Source of the DNA: Atriophallophorus winterbourni
Taxonomy: Eukaryota > Platyhelminthes > Trematoda > Plagiorchiida > Microphallidae
DNA length: 64,000 bases
Reading direction: 5' to 3'
NCBI GenBank assembly: GCA_013407085.1
Contig: JACCGJ010001780.1
Location: 25,001 to 89,000 of the forward strand
In this document: one piece after another, positions 1-64,000 of the stretch
How the letters are laid out: each line of letters opens with the position of its first letter
How positions within the stretch are numbered: position 1 is the first letter of the stretch
The notes under the pieces: model-generated
What the model was told of the DNA's origin: nothing
Databases searched by the model: none
The model's input: the letters and a program-made list of their open reading frames with translations, nothing else
Made by a program: the position numbers and the translations under genes

Positions 1-75
1 TAAGTAGACGAGAACTCCGATTCGCATTGCGCCATCCGTCTACACAAATACTAGTTCAAAACGAAAAGAGTCCAG

Positions 76-130
76 CGGATAGGCATAGCTGATGAGCGGC
101 AAAAACCTCGAAACCGGTCCTGTGCTTCCA
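76..130 (+). ncRNA. Hammerhead ribozyme, satellite copy 1 (core intact, stem II weakened)
   Basis: Stem I is GCATAG (83-88) paired with CTGTGC (120-125). The core CTGATGA (89-95) and GAAA are conserved. Cleavage is predicted after GTC at 119. Stem II here is GCGG/CCTC with one mismatch, so activity may be reduced. Confidence 0.7.
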
Positions 131-1616
131 GTGAGATTTTAGCGTTTCGGAATGGTATTCTATTTCAAACTATCCGAGGTTGTAATAACCCTCGCGGTTA
201 TACTCCTTTTGATCAGTTGGGGCTTAGTTTAGTCCATTCAGCTACTTATAAATTAGCAAGTAGACGAGAACTTCGATTAGCATTGCGCCATCCGTCTACA
301 CAAATACTAGTTCGAAACGCGAAGCGTCTAGCGGATATGCATAGCTGCTGAGAGTCGGAAACCTGGAAACCGGTCCTGTGCTTGCGGTGAAATTTTAGCG
401 TTTCGGAATGGTATTCTACTTCAAACTATCCTGGGGTTGTAGAAACCCTCGCGGCAATACGCCGTCCGATTAGTTGGGGCTTAGTTTGGTCCCTCCAGAT
501 TCTCATGATGTAGCAAGTGGACGAGAACTTCGATTCGCATTGCGCCATCCGTTTACACAAATACTAGTTCAAAACGCAAAGAGTCCAGCGGATACGCATA
601 GCTTATGGGAGGCAGAAACCTCGAAACCAGTCGTGTGCTTCCGGTGAGATTTTATCGTTTCGGAATGGTATTCTACTTCAAACTATCCTGGGGTTTTGAT
701 AATCTTCGTGGCAATACGCCGTCCGATCAGTTGGGGCTTAGTTTAGTCCCTTTAGCTACTTATAAAGTAGCAAGTAGACGAGAACTTCGATTCGCATTGC
801 GCCATCCGTCATCACAAATACTAGTTCGAAACGCGAAGAGTCCAGCAGATACGCATAGCTGCTGAGAGGCAGAAACCTGGAAACCGGTCCTGTGCTTCCG
901 GTGAGATTTAAGCGTTTCGGAATGGTATTCTACTTCAAAGTATCCTGAGGTTGTAATAAACCTCGCGGCAATACGCCGTCCGATCAGTTGGGGCTTAGTT
1001 AAGTCCCTTCAGCTTCTCATGAAGTAGCAAGTAGACGAGAACTTCGATTCGCATTGCGCCATCCGTCTACACAAATACTAGTTCAAAACGCAAAGAGTCC
1101 AGCGGATACGCATAGCTTATGGGAGGCAGAAACCTCGAAACCAGTCGTGTGCTTCCGGTGAGATTTTATCGTTTAGGAATGGTATTCTACTTCAAACTAT
1201 CCTGGGGTTTTGATAATCTTCGTGGCAATACGCCGTCCGATCAGTTGGGGCTTAGTTTAGTCCCTTCAGCTACTTATAAAGTAGCAAGTAGACGAGAACT
1301 CCGATTCGCATTGCGCCATCCGTCTACACAAATACTAGTTCGAAACGCGAAGCGTCTAGCGGATACGCATAGCTGCTGAGAGGCAGAAACCTTGAAACCG
1401 GTCCTGTGCTTCCCGTGAGATTTTCGCGTTTCGGAATGGTATTTTACTTCAAACTATCCTGGGGTTGTAATAACTCTCGCGGCAATACGCCGTCCGATCA
1501 GTTGGGGCTTAGTTAAGTCCCTCCAGCTACTCATAAAGTAGTAAGTAGACGAGAACTCCGATTCGCATTGCGCCATCCGTCTACACAAATACTAGTTCAA
1601 AACGAAAAGAGTCCAG

Positions 1617-1671
1617 CGGATAGGCATAGCTGATGAGAGGCAAAAACCTCGAAACCGGTCCTGTGCTTCCA
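1617..1671 (+). ncRNA. Hammerhead ribozyme, satellite copy 7 (intact core)
   Basis: A type I hammerhead with all core nucleotides in place. Stem I is GCATAG (1624-1629) with CTGTGC (1661-1666), one G-U wobble, extended outward by GGA/TCC across a small internal loop. CTGATGA spans 1630-1636. Stem II is GAGG/CCTC closing a six-base loop, followed by GAAA. Stem III is the minimal palindrome ACCGGT. The cleavage triplet GTC ends at 1660. A stem III this short is known from newt and schistosome hammerheads, which tend to cleave as dimers or with help. Confidence 0.85.
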
Positions 1672-3942
1672 GTGAGATTTTAGCGTTTCGGAATGGTATT
1701 CTATTTCAAACTATCCGAGGTTGTAATAACCCTCGCGGTTATACTCCTTTTGATCAGTTGGGGCTTAGTTTAGTCCATTCAGCTACTGATAAAGTAGCAG
1801 TAGACGAGAAACTTCGATTAGCATTGCCGCCATCCGTCTACACCAAATACTAGTCGAAACGCGAAGCGTCTAGCGGATATGCAAGCGGCTGAGAGTCGGA
1901 AACCTGGAAAAACGGTCTCCTGTGATTGCGGTGGTGGATTTGTGAGATTTTAGCGTTTCGGAATGGTATTCTACTTTAAACTATCCTGGGATTGTAAAAA
2001 CCCTCGCGTCAATACGCCGTCCGATCAGTTGGGGCTTAGTTTAGTCCCTCCAGCTTCTCATGAAGTAGCAAGTAGACGAGAACATCGATTCGCATTGCGC
2101 CATCCGTCTACACAAATACTAGTTCAAAACGCAAAGAGTCCAGCGGATACGCATAGCTTATGGGAGGCAGAAACCTCGAAACCAGTCGTGTGCTTCCGGT
2201 GAGATTTTATCGTTTAGGAATGGTATTCTACTTCAAACTATCCTGGGGTTTTGATAATCTTCGTGGCAATACGCCGTCCGATCAGTTGAGGCTTAGTTTA
2301 GTCCCTTCAGCTACTTATAAAGTAGCAAGTAGACGAGAACTTCGATTCGCATTGCGCCATCCGTCTTCACAAATACTAGTTCGAAACGCGAAGAGTCCAG
2401 CAGATACGCATAGCTGCTGAGAGGCAGAAACCTGGAAACCGGTCCTGTGCTTCCAGGGAGATTTAAGCGTTTCGGAATGGTATTCTACTTCAAAGTATCC
2501 TGAGGTTGTAATAACCCTCGCGGCAATACGTCGTCCAATCAGTTGGGGCTTAGTTAAGTCCCTTCAGCTACTTATAAAGTAGCAAGTAGACGAGAACTTC
2601 GATTAGCATTGCGCCATCCGTCTACACAAATACTAGTTCGAAACGCGAAGCGTCTAGCGGATACGCATAGCTGCTGAGAGGCAGAAACCTCGAAACCGGT
2701 CCTGTGCTTCCGGTGAGATTTTAGCGTTTCCGAATGGTATTCTACTTCAAACTATCCTGGGATTGTAAAACCCTCGCGGCAATAAGCCGTCCGATAAGTT
2801 GGAGTTTAGTTTAGTCCCTTCAGCTACTTATAAAGTAGCAAGTAGACGAAAACTTCGATTCGCATTGCGCCATCCGTCTTCACAAACACTAGTTCGAAAC
2901 GCGAAGTGTCCAGCAGATACGCATAGCTAAAGAGAGGCAAAAACTCCGAAACCGGTCCTGTGCTTCCGGTGAGATTTAAGCGTTTTAAAATGGTATTCTA
3001 CTTCAAACTATCATCAGGTTGTAATAACCCTCGCGGCAATACGCCGTCCGATCAGTTGGGGCTTAGTTAAGTCCCTTTAGCTACTTATAAAGTAGCAAGT
3101 AGACAAGAAATTCGATTCGCATTGCGCCATCTGTCTACACAAATACTAGTTCGAAACGCGAAGAGTCCAGCAGATACGCATAGCTGATGAGAGGCAAAAA
3201 CCTCCAAACCGGTCTTGTGCTCTCAGTGAGATTTTAGCGTTTCGGAATGGTATTTTACTTCAAACTATCCTGAAGTTGTAATAACCCTCTCGGCAATACG
3301 CCGTCTGATCAGTTGGGTCTTAGTTAAGTCCCTCCAGCTGCTTAAAAAGTAGCAAGTAGAGGAAAACTTCGATTCGCATTGCGCCATCCGTCTTCACAAA
3401 TACTAGTTCGAAACGCGGAGTGTCAAGCGGATACGCATAGCTGCTGAGAGGCAGAAACCTCGAAACCGGTCCTGTGCTTCCGGTGAGATTTTAGCGTTTC
3501 GGAATGGTATTCTACTTTAAACTATCCTGGGATTGTAAAAACCCTCGCGTCAATACGCCGTCCGATCAGTTGGGGCTTAGTTTAGTCCCTCCAGCTTCTC
3601 ATGAAGTAGCAAGTAGACGAGAACATCGATTCGCATTGCGCCATCCGTCTACACAAATACTAGTTCAAAACGCAAAGAGTCCAGCGGATACGCATAGCTT
3701 ATGGGAGGCAGAAACCTCGAAACCAGTCGTGTGCTTCCGGTGAGATTTTATTGTTTAGGAATGGTATTCTACTTCAAACTATCCTGGGGTTTTGATAATC
3801 TTCGTGGCAATACGCCGTCCGATCAGTTGGGGCTTAGTTTAGTCCCTTCAGCTACTTATAAAGTAGCAAGTAGACGAGAACTTCGATTCGCATTGCGCCA
3901 TCCGTCTTCCCAAATACTAGTTCTAAAGGCGAAGAGTCCAAG

Positions 3943-3996
3943 AGATACGCATAGCTGATGAGAGGCAAAAACCTCGAAACCGGTCCTGTGCTTCCG
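3943..3996 (+). ncRNA. Hammerhead ribozyme, satellite copy 16 (intact core)
   Basis: GCATAG (3949-3954), CTGATGA (3955-3961), stem II GAGG/CCTC, GAAAC, minimal stem III ACCGGT, cleavage after GTC at 3985, then CTGTGC (3986-3991). The outer part of stem I is mutated (GAGA in place of CGGA), leaving the inner six pairs. Confidence 0.8.
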
Positions 3997-4175
3997 TTGA
4001 GATTTAAGCGTTTCAAAATGGTATTCTACTTCAAAGTATCCTGAGGTTGTAATAACCCTCGCGGCAATACGCCGTCCAATCAGTTGGGGCTTAGTTAAGT
4101 CCCTTCAGCTACTTATAAAGTAGCAAGTAGACGAGAAATTCGATTTGCATTGCGCCATCTGTCTACACAAATACT

Positions 4176-4186
4176 AGTTCGAAACG
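4176..4186 (+). promoter_or_regulatory. Candidate Pol III B-box in satellite monomer
   Basis: AGTTCGAAACG matches the B-box consensus GGTTCGANTCC at about 8 of 11 positions and recurs in most monomers. About 45 bp upstream in each monomer is TAGCAAGTAG, an A-box-like string one base short of consensus. Pol III boxes are described in hammerhead satellites of schistosomes. Here this is a weak motif match only. Confidence 0.35.
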
Positions 4187-4455
4187 CGAAGTGTCCAGCG
4201 GATACGCATAGCTGATGGGAAGCAAAAACCTTGAAACCGGTCTTGTGCTCCCGGTGAGAATTTAGCGTTTCGGAATGGTATTCTACTTCAAACTATTCTG
4301 GGGTTGTTATAACCCTCGCGGCAATACGCCGTTCGATCAGTTGGGGCTAAGTTTATTCCCTTCAGCTTCTTATAAAGTAGCAAGTAGACGATAACTTCGA
4401 TTCACATTGCGCCATCCGTCTACACAAATACTAGTTCGGAACGCTAAGAGTCCAG

Positions 4456-4510
4456 CGGATACGCATAGCTGATGAGAGGCGAAAACCTCGAAACCGGTCC
4501 TGTGCTTCCG
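4456..4510 (+). ncRNA. Hammerhead ribozyme, satellite copy 18 (best-preserved)
   Basis: The most complete copy. The outer stem I pairs CGGA (4456-4459) with TCCG (4507-4510), followed by an internal loop and then GCATAG (4463-4468) with CTGTGC (4500-4505). The core CTGATGA is at 4469-4475. Stem II GAGG (4476-4479) and CCTC (4486-4489) close the loop CGAAAA. GAA is at 4490-4492. Stem III is ACCGGT, and the cleavage triplet GTC ends at 4499. It lies in the last monomer of the array. Confidence 0.87.
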
Positions 4511-4660
4511 GTGAGATTTTAGCGTTTCGGAATGGTATTCTACTTCAAACTATCTTGGGGTTGTAATAACTCTTGCGGCAATACGCTTTTCGATCAGTTG
4601 GGACTTAGTTTAGTCCCTTCAGCTTCTCATAAAGTAGCAAGTAGACGAAAACTTATGTTC

Positions 4661-4789
4661 GCATATATTATTAATATTACGTCATTAAGTTTATTGTTTT
4701 TCTTATTCGCTTTCATTTCATGAACAAATTTGCTACTTGGTATCTAAAACAAAAATATAGGTTTTCTTCAAATATTCATCTCTCCACCG
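4661..4789. other. AT-rich spacer between satellite and CR1 fragment
   Basis: Nothing recognisable. This is an AT-rich stretch marking the abrupt end of the satellite. Confidence 0.5.
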
Positions 4790-5715: not shown

Positions 5716-6204
5716 TTTAGAATCAGAGTATTCATCTCGAGTCCAGGATTCAGTTTTAAGAATAATGCTCATAGGTTTAGAAGTAAGGTAAGATTTTAGT
5801 ATACAGATTAGAGGTATAATTGATCTAGCATTGATGACAAGAAAAAGATCAACACAGTGGTCGAAAGTTAAAGGATTTGGAATTCGTGCATCAAACCATT
5901 TTCTAGGCTTGAAATTCAATTCATTTTTTTTGAAAAAAATGACGTATTAGGAATAAAGTATGTTCATAAGTGGAGTGAGATACTTATGGATTATAAAATA
6001 AAGGTTGGGGTATGCAATTATCATAAAAGGGGAGATATTGTGTAATGGGTGCTGAATTATAGTAAGGTTGAATATTACAAAATATATAGGTGGAGCTGGT
6101 GAATGGTGATACTTTTGCTTATATGGTAGGTGGTTATTTATTTAGAGACGAGAAGAAGTTTTAATATGGTAACTCTATGTAATAAATTGTGTTGTATTGA
6201 ATTG
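5716..6204. other. AT-rich spacer between two CR1-like copies
   Basis: A/T-rich sequence with no recognised feature. A 95-codon minus-strand frame overlapping it (5632-5919) is low-complexity and reads the ATT tail as poly-isoleucine, so it is not called. Confidence 0.4.
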
Positions 6205-7461
6205 AATAACCAAACCAAGAATGTAAGTGAGAACAAAAAATCTTGTGCAACCTGCCAGTTAGAATATTTAGATCACATAACCAGTTCACTAGACCAAGGA
6301 CTATCAGTGATTATTGTATTCCCAGACATAAGCAAGGCTTTCGATCGGGTTCCACATACGCTACTCCTATTGGAGTTATCATATTTAGGTATTCATGGGC
6401 CTTCATTAAGCTGGTTTCATTCATTTCTGTCTGATCGCACCTTTTCAGTTAGCGTTAACGGTGTTAGTTCACCTAATCAGCCGATTCCAAGTGGCGTAAT
6501 TCAGGGCAGTGTTCTAGGCCCCCTTCTTTTTCTCATCTATGCTAATGATCTGCAAAGTGTTGTGAACCACTCTAAACTCTTTATTTTCGCTGATGACATA
6601 AAAGTCGTCCTATCATTTCCACCTAATGAAATGTCACAAACTCTGATATCCCTTAACACTGATCTTGCATCTCTATCAAGCTGGGGCGCACAATGGGGAT
6701 TAGAATTTTCGGCTCCTAAGACACACTATATGGGATTACGCTGCTTAATCCCCTGTGACACACTTACATTAAATGGCTCAACCATAACTCCTTCTGCAGA
6801 AGTTAGGGATCTCGGATTTAGGTATTCCTCTTCTCTGAACTTTAATGAGCAAGCAAGACATCTCCTCACGAGAGCACGACAAAACTTTGGTTTAATTAAC
6901 CATAAAATCCTCTTACGTGAAAGTAAAATTGCACTATATAAAATGAAGGTCCTGCCAATTCTTGATTATTGTAATATCATATATTCCCACATGGGGAGGC
7001 GTGATTCTTTTCTCTTAGAGAGACTTCAACGTAATTTCACCAAAATAACTTTGGGTTATTCTAACCCTTTGCCTTATCATGAAAGGTGTAATTTGCTGAG
7101 TGTCGAACCACTATGGCTACGCAGAATTCGTCTGAATCTGCTTCTTTTCTTCCGAATCATTACTCAACAGCGAGTTAAGCTTCAGTCTGGCATGCGCTTT
7201 CGCGATTATATTCAATATGATCTGCGTAATCGAACAAGGCTATTGAATATCCCTTTGTCTCGCGCTAAAGTTAGACGTAACTTCTTCTTAATTAGATATG
7301 CACAACTTTGGAATTCCCTTCCTCTTCTTTTCCGTATATGCACATCTACAGGAAAATTTAAAACTCTTGTAGAAACTCTTACCGTTCACTCACTATCCCA
7401 AATCCTTAAGATAAACTCTTCTCTAGATATTCTATACTCTCATGGGATCCCAGGTTTCTAA
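6130..7461 (+). CDS. Reverse transcriptase C-terminal half of CR1-like retrotransposon
   Basis: A 443-codon open frame without internal stops. Reverse-transcriptase motifs appear in order: a fingers/palm motif with SKAFDRVPHTLLL (about residue 70), PSGVIQGSVLGPLLF (about residue 120), the catalytic FADD (about residue 150), then the thumb with LYKMKVLPILDYCNIIY, and a Cys-poor C-terminal tail rich in Arg and Leu. It is about half the usual length of a CR1 ORF2 and lacks the endonuclease and N-terminal RT, consistent with 5' truncation. The first ~30 codons precede the recognisable homology, so the start at 6130 is only the first open codon. The intact remaining frame suggests a fairly recent insertion. 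CR1 versus another Jockey-group clade is inferred from motifs alone. Confidence 0.85.
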   Translation: MVIYLETRRSFNMVTLCNKLCCIELNNQTKNVSENKKSCATCQLEYLDHITSSLDQGLSVIIVFPDISKAFDRVPHTLLLLELSYLGIHGPSLSWFHSFLSDRTFSVSVNGVSSPNQPIPSGVIQGSVLGPLLFLIYANDLQSVVNHSKLFIFADDIKVVLSFPPNEMSQTLISLNTDLASLSSWGAQWGLEFSAPKTHYMGLRCLIPCDTLTLNGSTITPSAEVRDLGFRYSSSLNFNEQARHLLTRARQNFGLINHKILLRESKIALYKMKVLPILDYCNIIYSHMGRRDSFLLERLQRNFTKITLGYSNPLPYHERCNLLSVEPLWLRRIRLNLLLFFRIITQQRVKLQSGMRFRDYIQYDLRNRTRLLNIPLSRAKVRRNFFLIRYAQLWNSLPLLFRICTSTGKFKTLVETLTVHSLSQILKINSSLDILYSHGIPGF

Positions 7462-16300: not shown

Positions 16301-19300
16301 TCTTACCCTCAAAATGGTGTCCAATGGCGGTATTGTAGATATGTTGGCGTGTTTGATTAATCTGTCAAGTGAACTGGCGAGAAAAGCTGGTTATGATGTG
16401 TGACATTGAAAGCCGCAAGGAAGCTGTCATGCTGATGTCGCTCTACTGGTTCACAACACGTGTATGCATGTTTGATTTGAGGTGTAGGCAACTCATCCCA
16501 GTGCCTAATCTTCGATATGTTCAGTAGCTTTTTAAGTCCCACCATTCCCCGTCTTTTTTGAATTTTACTTTTACTTAAATTGAGGCTTAAATCTACCATT
16601 CTGAAGAAACGTTTGACCCATATATGTATAAAATCTTGCGCATGGAACCAAGCAAAGTGCCACACTCGCATAGCCTGTACATGGGTTTTGATAATGTCAG
16701 GCTGTTCATTTCTAGGTAGATGGAAGAAAGGGATAGAAGCAAAAAAACTCGAGTGCGTTTCTGTTTGCAGCTCGTTATCGGTGGTCAATCAGTTATCAGG
16801 TTTTTCTCTAAACAGTTAGCAAGTACTGCACGATCGCATATCTTTGCTACTCAGCTCATTATCCGAACGTTTTTTGCTTTATGATTTGCGATGGCGATAG
16901 TGCAACAGTTCAATGTCCTGTCGTATCCTTGCCAACTTTTCGACCTCCTGCAGCGATTTCTCTTGTATACATGGCTGTAAAATTATGTATCATCTCCATC
17001 CTGTTCACGTAACACCGTGGTACATTGCATGTCTCCGTAGTTTCGCTTGGTGTTTTGGTTTAACCAATTTTCATATTGGGTTTATCTTTTGAACAATCAA
17101 TTCTGTCACTGTTCTTGCATTGTTGTTTAATCGGTCTCTTATAATTGTTCTACGAATAGCAGCACAAGCGTTCACAATCAGAATTACAACACGATGGACC
17201 CCTTTCGTGTTGTGGAACACACGACAGACGGAGATCGGAACAACCTTTCACTTCATCGAGAGAAAGGTTAGTACGACCATTGATGCTTCCACTTCAATGG
17301 ATTGACCCTTCAATTTGAAGAAGAAAAATTTATTAAGGACATCTTCATTCGAAAATACTCAAAATTTCAGCTTAAGGCTTATGTTAATACCAAAATCTTA
17401 ACAAAATGTGCGTGAAAATATTTGCTGAAAATATACGAGATAAATTCGACTTTAATTGTATCAACTCATCTAAAAACTCCGTAGCAGTCGCTCGCGCTTG
17501 TCTCTCACACGAGCCAGAGTGCGCTTTGTATCTTTCCTTCTTTAACATGGTATTTGAAAATATTCGAGACCGATCCGGAGTCCATACTCATGAAAATAAA
17601 GTTTGCAATGAATCGGTTATAGCAAGTTTTCGGTAACGTTTCGCTTCTGAACTCAAAAGCTTCGTCAGACCAAGAGTGTCGGTACGAACAGTGTTCAGGT
17701 TAAAGTAATGTGTTGCTCACATCCCCATCCTGTTCAGGTTAAATGGCATTTTATTGACCAATCTTATGTTCTCTAAGATAGACAGACGAGATCAAGACAA
17801 TTGATCACACCCCCTAAATGCCGTGTTAATCCCTAAATTGTTTATTTAGTGTGCAGGTGCGAACAGCGTCCGCTGACGCACTGGTTACGTAATCAATGTG
17901 CACATTAGGCGTTATGCACGTTAATCGTTATCCGCTGCAAAACCGAACGCCAGATTGTTGAGATATCCACCACATCCACCTTGTTCACCGCATTCGCCCC
18001 AGCCTTTGTTATTTCAACTGCCTCGGCGTGAAGTCTTTCCTTATAAGATTTCACACCCCGTCTTATCGCTTCCACGTTATCAAGATCTACGCTGTGTCCA
18101 GCGTCTAGCACGTGTTCAGCTAGAGCAGAATCCCGAATCAGTGATTGCTATTCACAGGGATTGCGGGGTTGTTTTCATGCTCGTTTCCTATGTTCGTTTA
18201 CCCTGGTGAAAAGTTCTCTAGACGTTTGCCTAATGTAAACACCCGCGCAACCCTTGCATTCGATTTTGTAGATGCAGTTTGTCGCACAACCTAAAGGAGT
18301 CTTATATTTGAGATGCATTAATACGGAGCGGAGATTTCTACCTGCCTTATATATTACTCTAATACCTGCGTTATTCAAGATTCGACTTATTCCTTTGGAG
18401 GCGCTTTCGACATACGGTAGAGATACCGTAGCTCGCCAAACTTTTTCCGTTTTCGGTTGCGGAGGTTTAACTCGGTTCAATTGGCGCTCAATTAAGCTCT
18501 TGGGGTAACCATGATTTGCAAGTCGACGACTGACTTCTTGATGAGCTCGTCTCTTATCGGCATCATCGCTGCAGAGGCGGTCAACCTTGTAGAATAGCGA
18601 TTTTGCTACGGACTAAAATACCCTTCCAGGATGCGCAGATGTGAATCTCAAAATGACATCTGTGTCGATTGGCTTACGATGTACCGTGGTTCTTATCTTT
18701 TGCGCGAGACAGTCCAAGAACGGAAGTGTCCCTGGTTGCGATTAGTTGTTAAGAATCCCCCTCTTGACCAGGTAAACAATCGCGTTCGATCGATAACGAG
18801 AAAAATCAACAATGAAAGTAGTGTCAATGAAAACTAACATATCATCCATAGCGTTTTATTTTAGATAAATCGATTTTGTATATCTGGCATCGCCTTCAGT
18901 TTTTTCATCCAGACAAATTGCGCTTCTTTTCCTTTATCTTATCCCGCGGTGTTTCTCTTCGTCTAGTTACAATAGCCCCAGAGATCTCGGTCGATCGCTG
19001 TGATCTCGAGCCTCCCGTCGAACACTCGAACAATTCACATTCCATCGAAACGGTTCCCGCTTCCCAGCCTCCGTTGTCTGGCTCTACCACGTCGATTCTC
19101 AGTCGCACTTTGGGTTTCCTCCCACGTGTAAGTTGAAAGTCGTTCTGCAACGAAAGCTTTTCATGCATTCTTTTGATTCGCGAAATCCTTGTGTATTCCT
19201 TTTCCTGTAATCAATTTGCTGAAGCGTTACGGAATGCTGTTTTGCTCAACCCTTTACGCATCCCCTCGTTTATAGTGTAACCAAAATCTCTTTCTTGGAC

Positions 19301-37300: not shown

Positions 37301-40300
37301 TGCAAATTAGTTGGCCATCCGAACGATCACGTGATTTGTTATGCGCTCGAATAGACACTTAAAAATCGACTGGCACAGTCGTGCATGAACTGCCGTCGTT
37401 TTTACGCTTGTATTCTTGTTAACATGTGGAACTCGTTTATCACAGTTTGCATTCCCCTATTAAGTTGCATCGCTTTTGTGTTGTTTAACTAAATTCTCAT
37501 TAACTTTTTAGTTGTCAACAATATCACGCGAACTCACCCAATTGTTCAACTTTTGCCATATTTAGTAGCTTGCCTACATTGTCTTCAACATGATAAAACA
37601 GCGGTATTTCTGAAGATTTACTTTAAGGAGTTGAAACCAATGTTGGTCTTTGGGTTGGCCGTGCTTGTGGTACAAATACGGCTGTTACTTGGAAGAGCTT
37701 TCTCTTGACAGCTTACTTTCCAGACAGTATTTCTGTGCTGTGCGGCTAACATCGTGCTAAATTGATTGGTTACCTGTAGTGAGCTTCATGCTGAAACACA
37801 CTGGAGTCTCACTACCGTTTCTATTTTTCTATTTCTTGTGTCATATCTGTCTATGCCTGGGCAACCTGACAGTATTTCAGCCCACGTGCAGTCTCTCACT
37901 GTGCGGCACTTTGACTGGATCAGGCTTGTTCTTTCACATCACACACACATCGCTTTCGAGACACTATGTAGAGTGTTGTCTTCAAGCTGAAGAAGCTCAG
38001 ATGTTGCTCTCGGCTGCTGTAAGCGTGCCATTTCCTCCCATTGACCGAGTACCGCCTATCGCTGTGAGCGCTGCCTGAGAGATTGTTCCTCTCGAAATGA
38101 ACTGTGTATTCGTAGTGTAGTATGTATGTATGATGTATGAAATCACAAGCCTGATCCAGGCAATGTGCCGAGTAGTCAACGACTGCACTTGGGCTAACGT
38201 ACTGGCAGGTTGCCCAGGCCTAGACATATATGGGGAAGGAAAACTGAAATGGCAGTGCGACTCCAGCGTGTGTTCACACACAGCTCACTACTGGTGGCCA
38301 ATCAATTTAGCACGGTGTTAGCTGCACAGCATAGAACTGCTGGACGATTGAACATCCGTGCAGTTTCATCGTGTAGTATTGCGTCATGGGCATGGAATGT
38401 CCATCCACGATGAACATTGTCCTTATAGCAATATCTATACAAAATTAATCACTGTTTTATATATCAACTACGAACTGAGCAATACGTCGTCCTTTTATTT
38501 GATTAATCGGATGTGATTAGTTGCGCTGTACGGGTAACCTAATCTTTTTTACCATAGTCGTCTTAATCCAGTGTCAGTAGAAATATATTGATTTAGAAAT
38601 GCACACATTTTAACAACGTTTTTCTCCGTGGTCATGCTTTCTGCTACATTATTTTTTACTTCTATGTAGCAAAACCTTCACACACATAAGTTACTTTCGT
38701 TTCGATGCGTTTTTTTAATTAGCATTCAACACCTTGATCTGTTGTATTTTCCAGGGTGGAACAGTCTCCTTGGTCGAAAGAGCCTTCAAGAAGTCAATCG
38801 TTTTTTTCGCGACCACTGCTCGGTTTGCAATGCCTCCGCGTCCATCCCTTCTCACACTGGCGCAAGTACCGGTTCCAAGGCTACTTTGAACTTGATCAAC
38901 AATACCAATGGTCCCAACAGCTGCACGCACGAATTGCCGAGCTTGATCAGCGCTTGTCTAACGTCGTTAGAACCGCAAAGCACGTTCCGTGTCTATCCTG
39001 GTCTCGGTCTTTCGTCTGAGGATGGTTTCGGGGCTGGCGGAGGTTCCGGTGCTGGTGGCACAATCGCAGGTACGGTCGGTTCCGCGCTTGCGGGGAATGT
39101 CTCGAGCTCCGGTGCTGCTGGTGTCACGGGGACGTTGAATAGTGCGTCTGCTTCTTCGTTCGCCATACGCACCATGATGCTGGTGGGTAATGAGATGGCT
39201 ACGGACATTCCCAGCACAACGCACATACTCGTTTTCCCCACGAGTACATCCGCTAGTGGTCCGTCGGTGAGTCACGTGGTTTTCCGTTACTAATCTTGTG
39301 TGACCGTTGTAGGTGGCAAGAGTTTTTCTCATAATATATCCCACTCTCTTTGCAGCTCATGTCATTCTAAATCAATTTGTTGCCGGTACTGAAACGAGAC
39401 CGGAGTCACACCTCATTTTTTCGTTTCATGTTATATATCTCTAGGCCTGGGTCCACGTGTGGTTTATGCCCGGATCGGGTGTTTTCTTTCATACATGCAT
39501 GTTATATATTACCCGAGTAGAACCCAAGTAATAATTACCCAAATGTTTAACACTGAAAAACCTTTATGCTATTGGTCACAATTGACTAATTAACCCAACA
39601 CTAAGTTTAGCAAGAACAAAGGCAGGCCGTTTAGACAAAGAGCTTTACCGTCTCTGACCAAAAAGCCATTGGGCTGCGGCTCGTGTGTATTTATACACTG
39701 AATCATTATGGCCGACAAAATGGACCAATCAGAATCGAGAATCATAAATTATAAGTTATAATGAGTTTTTGAGGAAAATAATAATATTTCCTCAACAATG
39801 AATACATTCCTCGCTCTAGTATTCATATATCTGTCGATGTAGTGGTTGCATTTGCTCCTTCCAATCTAGACATCCGTGGTTAAAACCAACTGCGGTCGCA
39901 CATAGAATGTGGGCCTAATTCCCCGTCATACACTGTTGTAAAATGGTGATAAAGAACTATCTTGTTTAATAGATGAAATCACTTATTCACACCGGCCCGG
40001 GTTACCTGCAGGGATGTGCAATCGTGCAGCATTCCTGTACTGTGCGGCTAACACCGTGCTAAATTGATTGGCCAACGGTAGTGAGCTGCATGCTGAAACA
40101 CGCTGGAGTCTCACTACAATTTCTATCCCCCCTCATATCTGTCTAGGTCTGGGTAACCTGACAGTATCTTAGCCCACGTGCAGTCTATGACTGTGCGGCA
40201 CTTTGCCTGGACCAGTCTTGTGCTTTCATACATACATATACCTGATAATTTATAGTATGGGTTTTGTGTCGATATCCTGCAAATAGATTCAACGACTGTC

Positions 40301-63184: not shown

Positions 63185-63362
63185 GAATCTTGAATAACAC
63201 GGGTATTAGAGGTAGAACACGCCGCTCCGTATTAATGCATCTCCTTTAGGTTGTGCGACAAACTGCATCTACAAAATCAAGTGCCATGGTTGCGCGGGCG
63301 TTAACATTGGGCAAACGTCGAGAGAACTTTGCACTAGGGTAAACGAACATAGGAAACGACTT
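63185..63362 (+). mobile_element. Penelope-like GIY-YIG fragment, sense
   Basis: Encodes CDKLHLQNQ in one frame and GCATNCIYKIKCHGCAGVNI, GQTSRELCTRVNEHRK in another, the same region as 18175-18310. Compared with that copy it lacks 13 bp between two CTC triplets (after gcat), so it is frame-shifted. Confidence 0.8.
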
Positions 63363-63924: not shown

Positions 63925-64000
63925 TGGAACCGTATTAATGCATCTCCTTTAGGTTGTGCGACAAACTGCATCTACAAAATCAAGTGCAATGGTTGCGCGG
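63925..64000 (+). mobile_element. Penelope-like fragment, second copy (cut by window end)
   Basis: Repeats 63228-63300 almost base for base, including the same 13 bp deletion, then leaves the window. Confidence 0.82.

Follow-up and report, generated by a model that had tools for sequence, protein, structure and literature searches.

Array ends of a hammerhead ribozyme repeat family in the trematode Atriophallophorus winterbourni point to probable mobilisation by Penelope-like elements

The first part of a 64,000-nucleotide stretch of the Atriophallophorus winterbourni genome (the window, C1567:25001-89000 on contig JACCGJ010001780.1, window position 1 being C1567:25001; assembly of 537 Mb in 15,840 contigs) consists of tandem 257-bp units with a type I hammerhead ribozyme (HHR). 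These units almost certainly represent a family of HHR retrozymes. Judged on its sequence, the family is more than a satellite: it is a mobile element whose ends are defined. Its arrays end 3' at two preferred points of the unit and 5' at scattered points, some are flanked by target duplications, and many are arranged head to head. Penelope-like elements (PLEs) resident in the same genome carry an HHR-like motif and also have two preferred ends. Insertion by target-primed reverse transcription from two preferred points is very likely, and a PLE is the probable mobilising enzyme; taken as a whole, a non-autonomous trematode retrozyme family without long terminal repeats (non-LTR) that is moved by PLEs is the reading that we consider likely. 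The array ends would then carry the mark of a possible mobiliser, namely two start points and products of both strands, as reported in 2024 for a PLE in vitro (PMC11167929; papers are cited here from excerpts). If this is true, it would answer the open question of how animal retrozymes spread, and a one-step origin would be possible for some satellite arrays.

Array ends and target sites

DNA around the arrays was fetched, units were located with a profile of the window units, and the ends were scored; 53 arrays were reduced to 48 for the end counts after five had been dropped for a shared flank. The fetched DNA contained 60 3' ends, of which 26 fell in an interval A (unit 228-246) and another 26 in an interval B (unit 112-128); together the two intervals make up 14% of the unit. 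The remaining eight lay at 81, 83, 208, 249, 251, 253, 255 and 257. None of the 60 was found at the ribozyme cut (unit 62-78), and priming from a ribozyme-cut 3' end was rejected on this count. As a control of the method, 300 insertions of real array pieces with random breakpoints were simulated, and 57 (19%) fell in the A or B interval. Six arrays fetched after the rule had been set, with no flank in common with the earlier ones, had seven of eight 3' ends in the intervals, L084 missing (p = 6e-5 against 19%). Overall, 59 of 68 3' ends lie in A or B (p = 2e-33 against the simulated 19%). The 22 5' ends were scattered (Kolmogorov-Smirnov p = 0.72 against a uniform distribution), two of them in the A or B interval. 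Five of the 22 lie just past the ribozyme cut at unit 71-82 (p = 0.003, an interval picked after looking), which is a lead and not a claim. The same holds for the complementarity of the two sites, in which unit 116-120 pairs with 224-228 and positions 117-227 (C-G/U-A) and 116-228 (U-A/U-G/C-G) co-vary; this helix has 5 bp, two of its pairs are broken in about 30% of units, and the independent events are few.

Common flanks were seen for the arrays at loci L011/L013, L014/L033/L038, L021/L044 and L035/L036, groups that may be haplotype copies, segmental duplications or insertions in a common host repeat. The arrays at L020, L025 and L059 sit in copies of apparently one repeat family (TACTGTCAGGTTGCCCAGG is common to L020 and L025, with a related sequence at L059), which is a possible favoured target.

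Target duplications were scored in 34 arrays for which both ends were visible. The two L051 arrays had been set aside beforehand, as had any array truncated by the limit of a contig or of a fetched stretch or by a run of N. The best direct repeat across the ends scored at least 7 in 10 of 34 and at least 8 in 8 of 34, and among 1122 mismatched left-right pairs the proportions were 0.45% and zero. Examples are AACCTGACAGTAT at L025 and ATAACACCAAACCC at L027, and L050, L057 and L061 have duplications of 13-14 bp each. Among the later arrays, inspection by eye gave duplications of 14 bp at L082, 11 bp at L083 and 11 bp with one mismatch at L087. Target duplications of 7-14 bp are present at a minority of arrays, and none was found at the window's own array.

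Head-to-head (inverted) arrays with two 3'-type ends account for 14 of the 34, and for two of the six fetched later. Both ends lie in the intervals in 12 cases, of which ten combine A with B, one is A-A and one B-B (p = 0.019, one-sided, against half); the window array is one of the ten. Such products could have arisen through extension of both target strands.

The hammerhead ribozyme

The unit contains one type I hammerhead site made up of stem I GCATAG/CTGTGC (one G-U), CTGATGA, stem II GAGG/CCTC, GAAA, CCGG and the cut site TC. A preliminary description of the window had credited each monomer with a hammerhead, which is too generous: only 3 of 18 window copies are intact, a fourth has one mismatch in stem II, and the core is altered in the other 14 (CTGCTGA, CTTATGG, CTGATGG, CTAAAGA, CGGCTGA and G12C were seen). 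The three copies that it had singled out are the intact ones, with CTGATGA, a paired stem II, GAAA and CCGGTC all in place; the copy that it had called weaker is the one with the stem II mismatch, and the cleavage that it had predicted after 4499 follows TC at 4498-4499 (Table 1).

The ACCGGT that it had listed does not make a helix III in a single molecule, where these letters form only one A-U pair capped by the palindromic CCGG loop, or else pair between two copies. The folding check that it had proposed gave a divided result. The 55-nt copy at 4456-4510 folded better than 200 of 200 shuffles (z = -3.05); longer pieces of 72 nt from four copies, including a core-dead one, were less striking (z = -2.43, -1.44, -1.88 and -1.23). 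Single-copy folds favour other pairings, in which core letters are paired with the CCGG region. When each copy was cofolded with itself, the best structure was the double HHR for 3942-3996 and contained it for 1617-1671, and for 4456-4510 the double HHR lay 0.3 kcal/mol off the best. Since helix III is a one-pair palindromic helix, dimeric action is predicted, and in these models the double HHR is the likely active form. Unit-length cleavage and circularisation of the transcripts are likewise predicted. The same helix III, one pair with a palindromic tetraloop, is described for axolotl HHR_Amex1, a ribozyme with poor cleavage as a single copy that improves when it dimerises, whereas typical invertebrate HHRs have a longer helix III (PMC7229834). 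Whole-unit covariation was uninformative because just one of 59 predicted pairs had a change on both sides.

A 37-base HHR pattern with up to three mismatches has 1734 matches in the genome (878 on one strand and 856 on the other) against none for the reversed-pattern control, and the first places in the list (contigs C64 to C2215) are spread over many contigs. At 46 other loci, 212 copies could be scored and 164 of them have an intact HHR (101/131, 39/50 and 24/31 by locus set), compared with 7 of 41 in the whole C1567 array. The former fraction is skewed upward because the loci were picked by matches to the window copy 4384-4640 (L010-L048) or from the list of exact HHR matches (L049-L064 and L082-L087). 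Non-majority letters occur at a rate of 0.027 in the HHR block and 0.056 in the rest of the unit; at loci not picked by an HHR match, the rates are 0.024 and 0.055. By these counts the family is largely intact and the window array is one of its old, decayed members.

The preliminary description had placed the repeat in a retrozyme-like class, and this is borne out by the 257-bp tandem units, the type I HHR, a GC content of 46%, the lack of a closed open reading frame of at least 130 aa in the array, the dispersal of units and, as for non-LTR animal retrozymes, target duplications of more than 4 bp at some arrays. Long terminal repeats are absent, as judged on array anatomy only. Non-LTR animal retrozymes of coral, mussel and axolotl (PMC7229834) are alike in their tandem units of 170-400 bp, type I HHR, GC below 50%, dispersal, occasional target duplications and co-resident PLEs, and no LTR, primer binding site or polypurine tract is described in the excerpt. 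For the present family, RNA circles are a prediction from genomic sequence. The two preferred 3' ends and head-to-head arrays of the present family are not described in the excerpt of PMC7229834. SMalpha and the W-elements of Schistosoma mansoni are satellite-like type I HHR repeats of a trematode, some of them active in vitro, and are called putatively mobile (PMC8490949); the likeness to SMalpha is architectural only, and the excerpt holds no two-ended anatomy. Among the open-paper matches listed, no title or abstract start reports defined retrozyme ends, in a search that mostly left subscription papers outside. A phrase search for open papers on hammerhead ribozymes in a trematode genome returned none, and one exact degenerate pattern gave no match in IMG/VR. 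It is plausible that the 257-bp family is undescribed.

Penelope-like elements and competing explanations

The decayed PLE of the window (Table 1) includes a 145-aa frame at 18175-18612 (minus strand) with no Pfam match of its own. Its candidate relatives number 9185 genome-wide, of which 150 were scored, with open frames of up to 878 aa. At L071, PLE units follow each other at a spacing of 2753 bp: two are complete and near-identical, each with an 872-aa frame, and the third is incomplete. The 872-aa protein matches RVT_1 with 36.6 bits, above the cut-off. We read these elements as PLEs from the RVT_1 and GIY-YIG pair, the domain order and the tandem layout. Unit positions 65-104, near the frame start, read GGT-CTGACGA-AGCTTCTG...CAGAAGC-GAAACGTT-ACC, which we take as a minimal PLE hammerhead, a class described in PMC7761336; an Rfam search of this motif reported none. 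Twelve of 16 PLE copy ends fall in two clusters, at 184-194 (eight) and 146-149 (four). These 16, counted with no shared-flank filter, leave out the L071 tandem's own end (repeat boundary 413) and six ends in more diverged copies (L027, window 32692, L021, L019 and two in L011) because the BLAST end there may not be the element end. L069 holds a head-to-head PLE insertion with ends at 134 and about 188 and, by eye, TTCGTTAATA near both sides. The nearer cluster lies 45-48 nt past the predicted cut of the PLE HHR; in the retrozyme, the distance from the cut to the B end is about 51 nt.

With purified anole PLE (PAc), reverse transcription begins at two neighbouring sites inside the RNA; the protein cuts both strands of the target and extends each of them, and genomic PLE ends coincide with the start sites (PMC11167929). 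In Adineta vaga, PLEs have been reported to occur as inverted copies, to have a tail in some cases and to come with 8-10-bp duplications (PMC3846280). The retrozyme shares with these PLEs the tandem and inverted layout, the type I HHR (PAc), duplications (those of 8-10 bp in Adineta), two alternative ends (compare the tail) and products of the kind expected from the both-strand extension seen in vitro; its two preferred 3' ends and head-to-head products are those expected of insertion by PLE machinery. It differs in being 257 bp long and non-coding, with a fuller HHR with extended stem I and ends about 115 nt apart on the unit, and, as the unit codes for no reverse transcriptase or GIY-YIG frame, it is not itself a PLE. 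PLEs have been proposed as the likely movers of animal retrozymes, mainly from co-occurrence and shared type I HHRs (PMC7229834; PMC7761336). According to the 2020 review, animal retrozymes lack a conserved motif that would reveal an autonomous partner, and PLEs/Terminons are only likely candidates (PMC7761336).

In the mechanism that we propose, transcripts of tandem units would be cut by hammerheads acting mainly in pairs, as a double HHR held by ACCGGU-ACCGGU, into monomers of 257 nt, which would probably then be closed into circles by ligation. A Penelope-like reverse transcriptase/GIY-YIG protein would nick both target strands about 7-14 bp apart, and reverse transcription would start within the RNA at A (unit ~233-243) or B (~115-125). 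Copying round the circle, or along a multimer, would yield tandem cDNA. If one strand were extended, the product would be a direct array whose 3' end is fixed and whose 5' end is random; if both were, it would be a head-to-head array with two 3'-type ends. A circular template is favoured over a multimeric linear one with reasonable confidence. We lean slightly towards a stronger form, in which the circular retrozyme RNA is a parasite of the PLE, with two start sites that imitate the internal ones of the PLE RNA, is copied round by PLE protein from both target strands, and gives rise to an entire tandem array, direct or head-to-head, in one insertion.

Several results weigh against this interpretation. 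On the side of the retrozyme, 24 of the 34 arrays scored below 7 in the duplication test, the window array included, and 9 of 68 3' ends lie outside the intervals. By eye, those at L011 (249) and L037 (255) could represent A ends extended into the target, and that at L018 (251) seems to be a few bases past A; L084, L051 and L056 do not fit. The AT content of flanks near 51 ends (0.632 against 0.604, p = 0.09) was not significantly raised. When the polymorphic A and B sites are left out, the rate for the rest of the unit drops to 0.038, so that part of the HHR contrast is theirs, and a permutation test of the 13 HHR core columns alone gave only p = 0.042. In only 16 of 25 cases were units more alike within an array than, on average, between that array and others, a homogeneity that would fit a single circular template only in part. 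In addition, no copy in the window, or at eight other loci, reached any Rfam gathering score. The preliminary description had named sub-threshold Infernal scores in all copies as grounds for rejecting the hammerhead, and such scores were found throughout, although RF02275 (Hammerhead_HH9) was listed for 12 window copies, the best with 40.1 bits (E = 7e-8) against its gathering score of 52. We read the shortfall as a limit of the model, because the aligned copies are without its 5-nt loop III; the assignment rests on core, stems and conservation and not on Rfam membership. On the side of the PLE, the GIY-YIG match of the 872-aa protein (16.4 bits) is below the Pfam cut-off of 22.6, and 4 of 16 ends lie outside both clusters (103, 119, 129 and 134). 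The distance between the retrozyme sites (about 115 nt) exceeds that between the PLE end sites (about 41 nt), and the two kinds of site have in common a short UUCRA-like stretch, noted by eye as a lead, but no recognition sequence common to both was established. For the anole PLE, the element's own HHR is dispensable for insertion in vitro (PMC11167929). We infer the link between PLE and retrozyme from shared anatomy, which stops short of a demonstration.

Alternatively, A and B may mark where processed RNAs finish, through cleavage or termination, and reverse transcription would start from these RNA 3' ends and not internally. Junctions in the genome do not by themselves tell a defined RNA end of this kind from an internal start. 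This explanation is nevertheless unlikely, as the sole RNA end predicted by the anatomy, the ribozyme cut, is used by none of the 60 3' ends, and internal initiation has been reported in vitro for a PLE (PMC11167929).

A retrozyme moved by an element of the long interspersed nuclear element (LINE) type, through ordinary target-primed reverse transcription with twin priming as the source of inverted arrays, seems a little less probable still. Hallmarks of LINEs likewise include a fixed 3' end, truncation on the 5' side and target duplications, and a second reverse transcriptase family is present in the window (6130-7461, RVT_1). To our knowledge, two alternative preferred ends and two 3'-type ends in head-to-head arrays are not among these hallmarks, and by eye no poly-A or simple repeat was seen directly at the 3' ends inspected. 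Cleavage and extension of both strands is a property of PLE, unlike R2 and LINE-1 (PMC11167929). Spread as ordinary satellite DNA with relic hammerheads, by unequal exchange or reinsertion of circular DNA, would agree with the dead variants, distant identical units and periodicity of the window array described below, but is very improbable and was rejected because of the preferred ends and target duplications, which, like the mostly intact HHRs of other arrays, are unexpected from recombination alone.

The window array and neighbouring features

Tandem Repeats Finder (TRF) has placed 257-bp tandem units at 2-4654 of the window (18.1 copies, 87% matches), in agreement with the unit length and tandem layout of the preliminary description. 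The extent that it gave, 1 to 4660, is too short, since a profile search of contig pieces has traced the full array over about 11.5 kb, C1567:18138-29664. Its left end is made up of about 1.7 inverted units (three profile matches, 434 bp) with a B end. To the right follow about 39 direct units (41 profile matches) that end at window 4664, and the array is interrupted by a 1-kb run of N (C1567:20933-21932). The dead core CTTATGG is present in 8 of 41 copies of this array and 0 of 221 elsewhere, and CTGCTGA in 16 of 41 and 3 of 221. In addition, identical units stand many positions apart and a 6-unit periodicity is seen. From these three features it appears that exchange at the DNA level has probably acted on the array after insertion, with dead-core variants multiplied in place and expansion.

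Table 1. Features of the window discussed in the text, in window coordinates
Feature	Position	Strand	Basis
Hammerhead, core intact, one stem II mismatch, predicted cut after 119	76..130	+	Rfam match, core scoring
Intact type I hammerhead, predicted cut after 1660	1617..1671	+	Rfam match, core scoring
Intact type I hammerhead, predicted cut after 3985	3943..3996	+	Rfam match, core scoring
Intact type I hammerhead, predicted cut after 4499	4456..4510	+	Rfam match, core scoring, folding
Retrozyme array, right part, 257-bp units	2..4664	+	TRF and profile search of contig pieces
A site of one unit (AACTTCGATTCACAT), point where many sampled arrays end 3'	4393..4407	+	Sequence and end statistics
B site of last unit (TACTTCAAACT), second 3'-end point of sampled arrays	4541..4551	+	Sequence and end statistics
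3' terminus of window array, an A end, with unrelated flank adjoining	4650..4664	+	
Reverse-transcriptase open reading frame, 443 aa	6130-7461	+	RVT_1, E 1.6e-18
Decayed PLE of the candidate mobiliser family, a resident copy with its end at ~186 of the PLE unit	17550..18733	-	
PLE fragments	63210-63359, 63944-64000	+	

The 443-aa reverse transcriptase frame matches metagenome entries and digenean proteins, for example of Dicrocoelium, and the named digenean matches include identities of 36-47%. At 38670-39293 (plus strand), a weak Med13_C match (22.1 bits against a cut-off of 26.1) is possibly an exon of Mediator subunit 13 among retroelement relics. The host is a digenean also by its COX1: the best frame, whose internal stops are all TGA, was read with the mitochondrial code of flatworms, and its best match is Prosthogonimus cuneatus, a digenean, at 80%. 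Elsewhere in the assembly, COX1-like stretches with TAA/TAG stops on C4746, C8922, C11485, C10138, C15234, C4773 and C4859:63798-64589 are probable nuclear copies of mitochondrial DNA.

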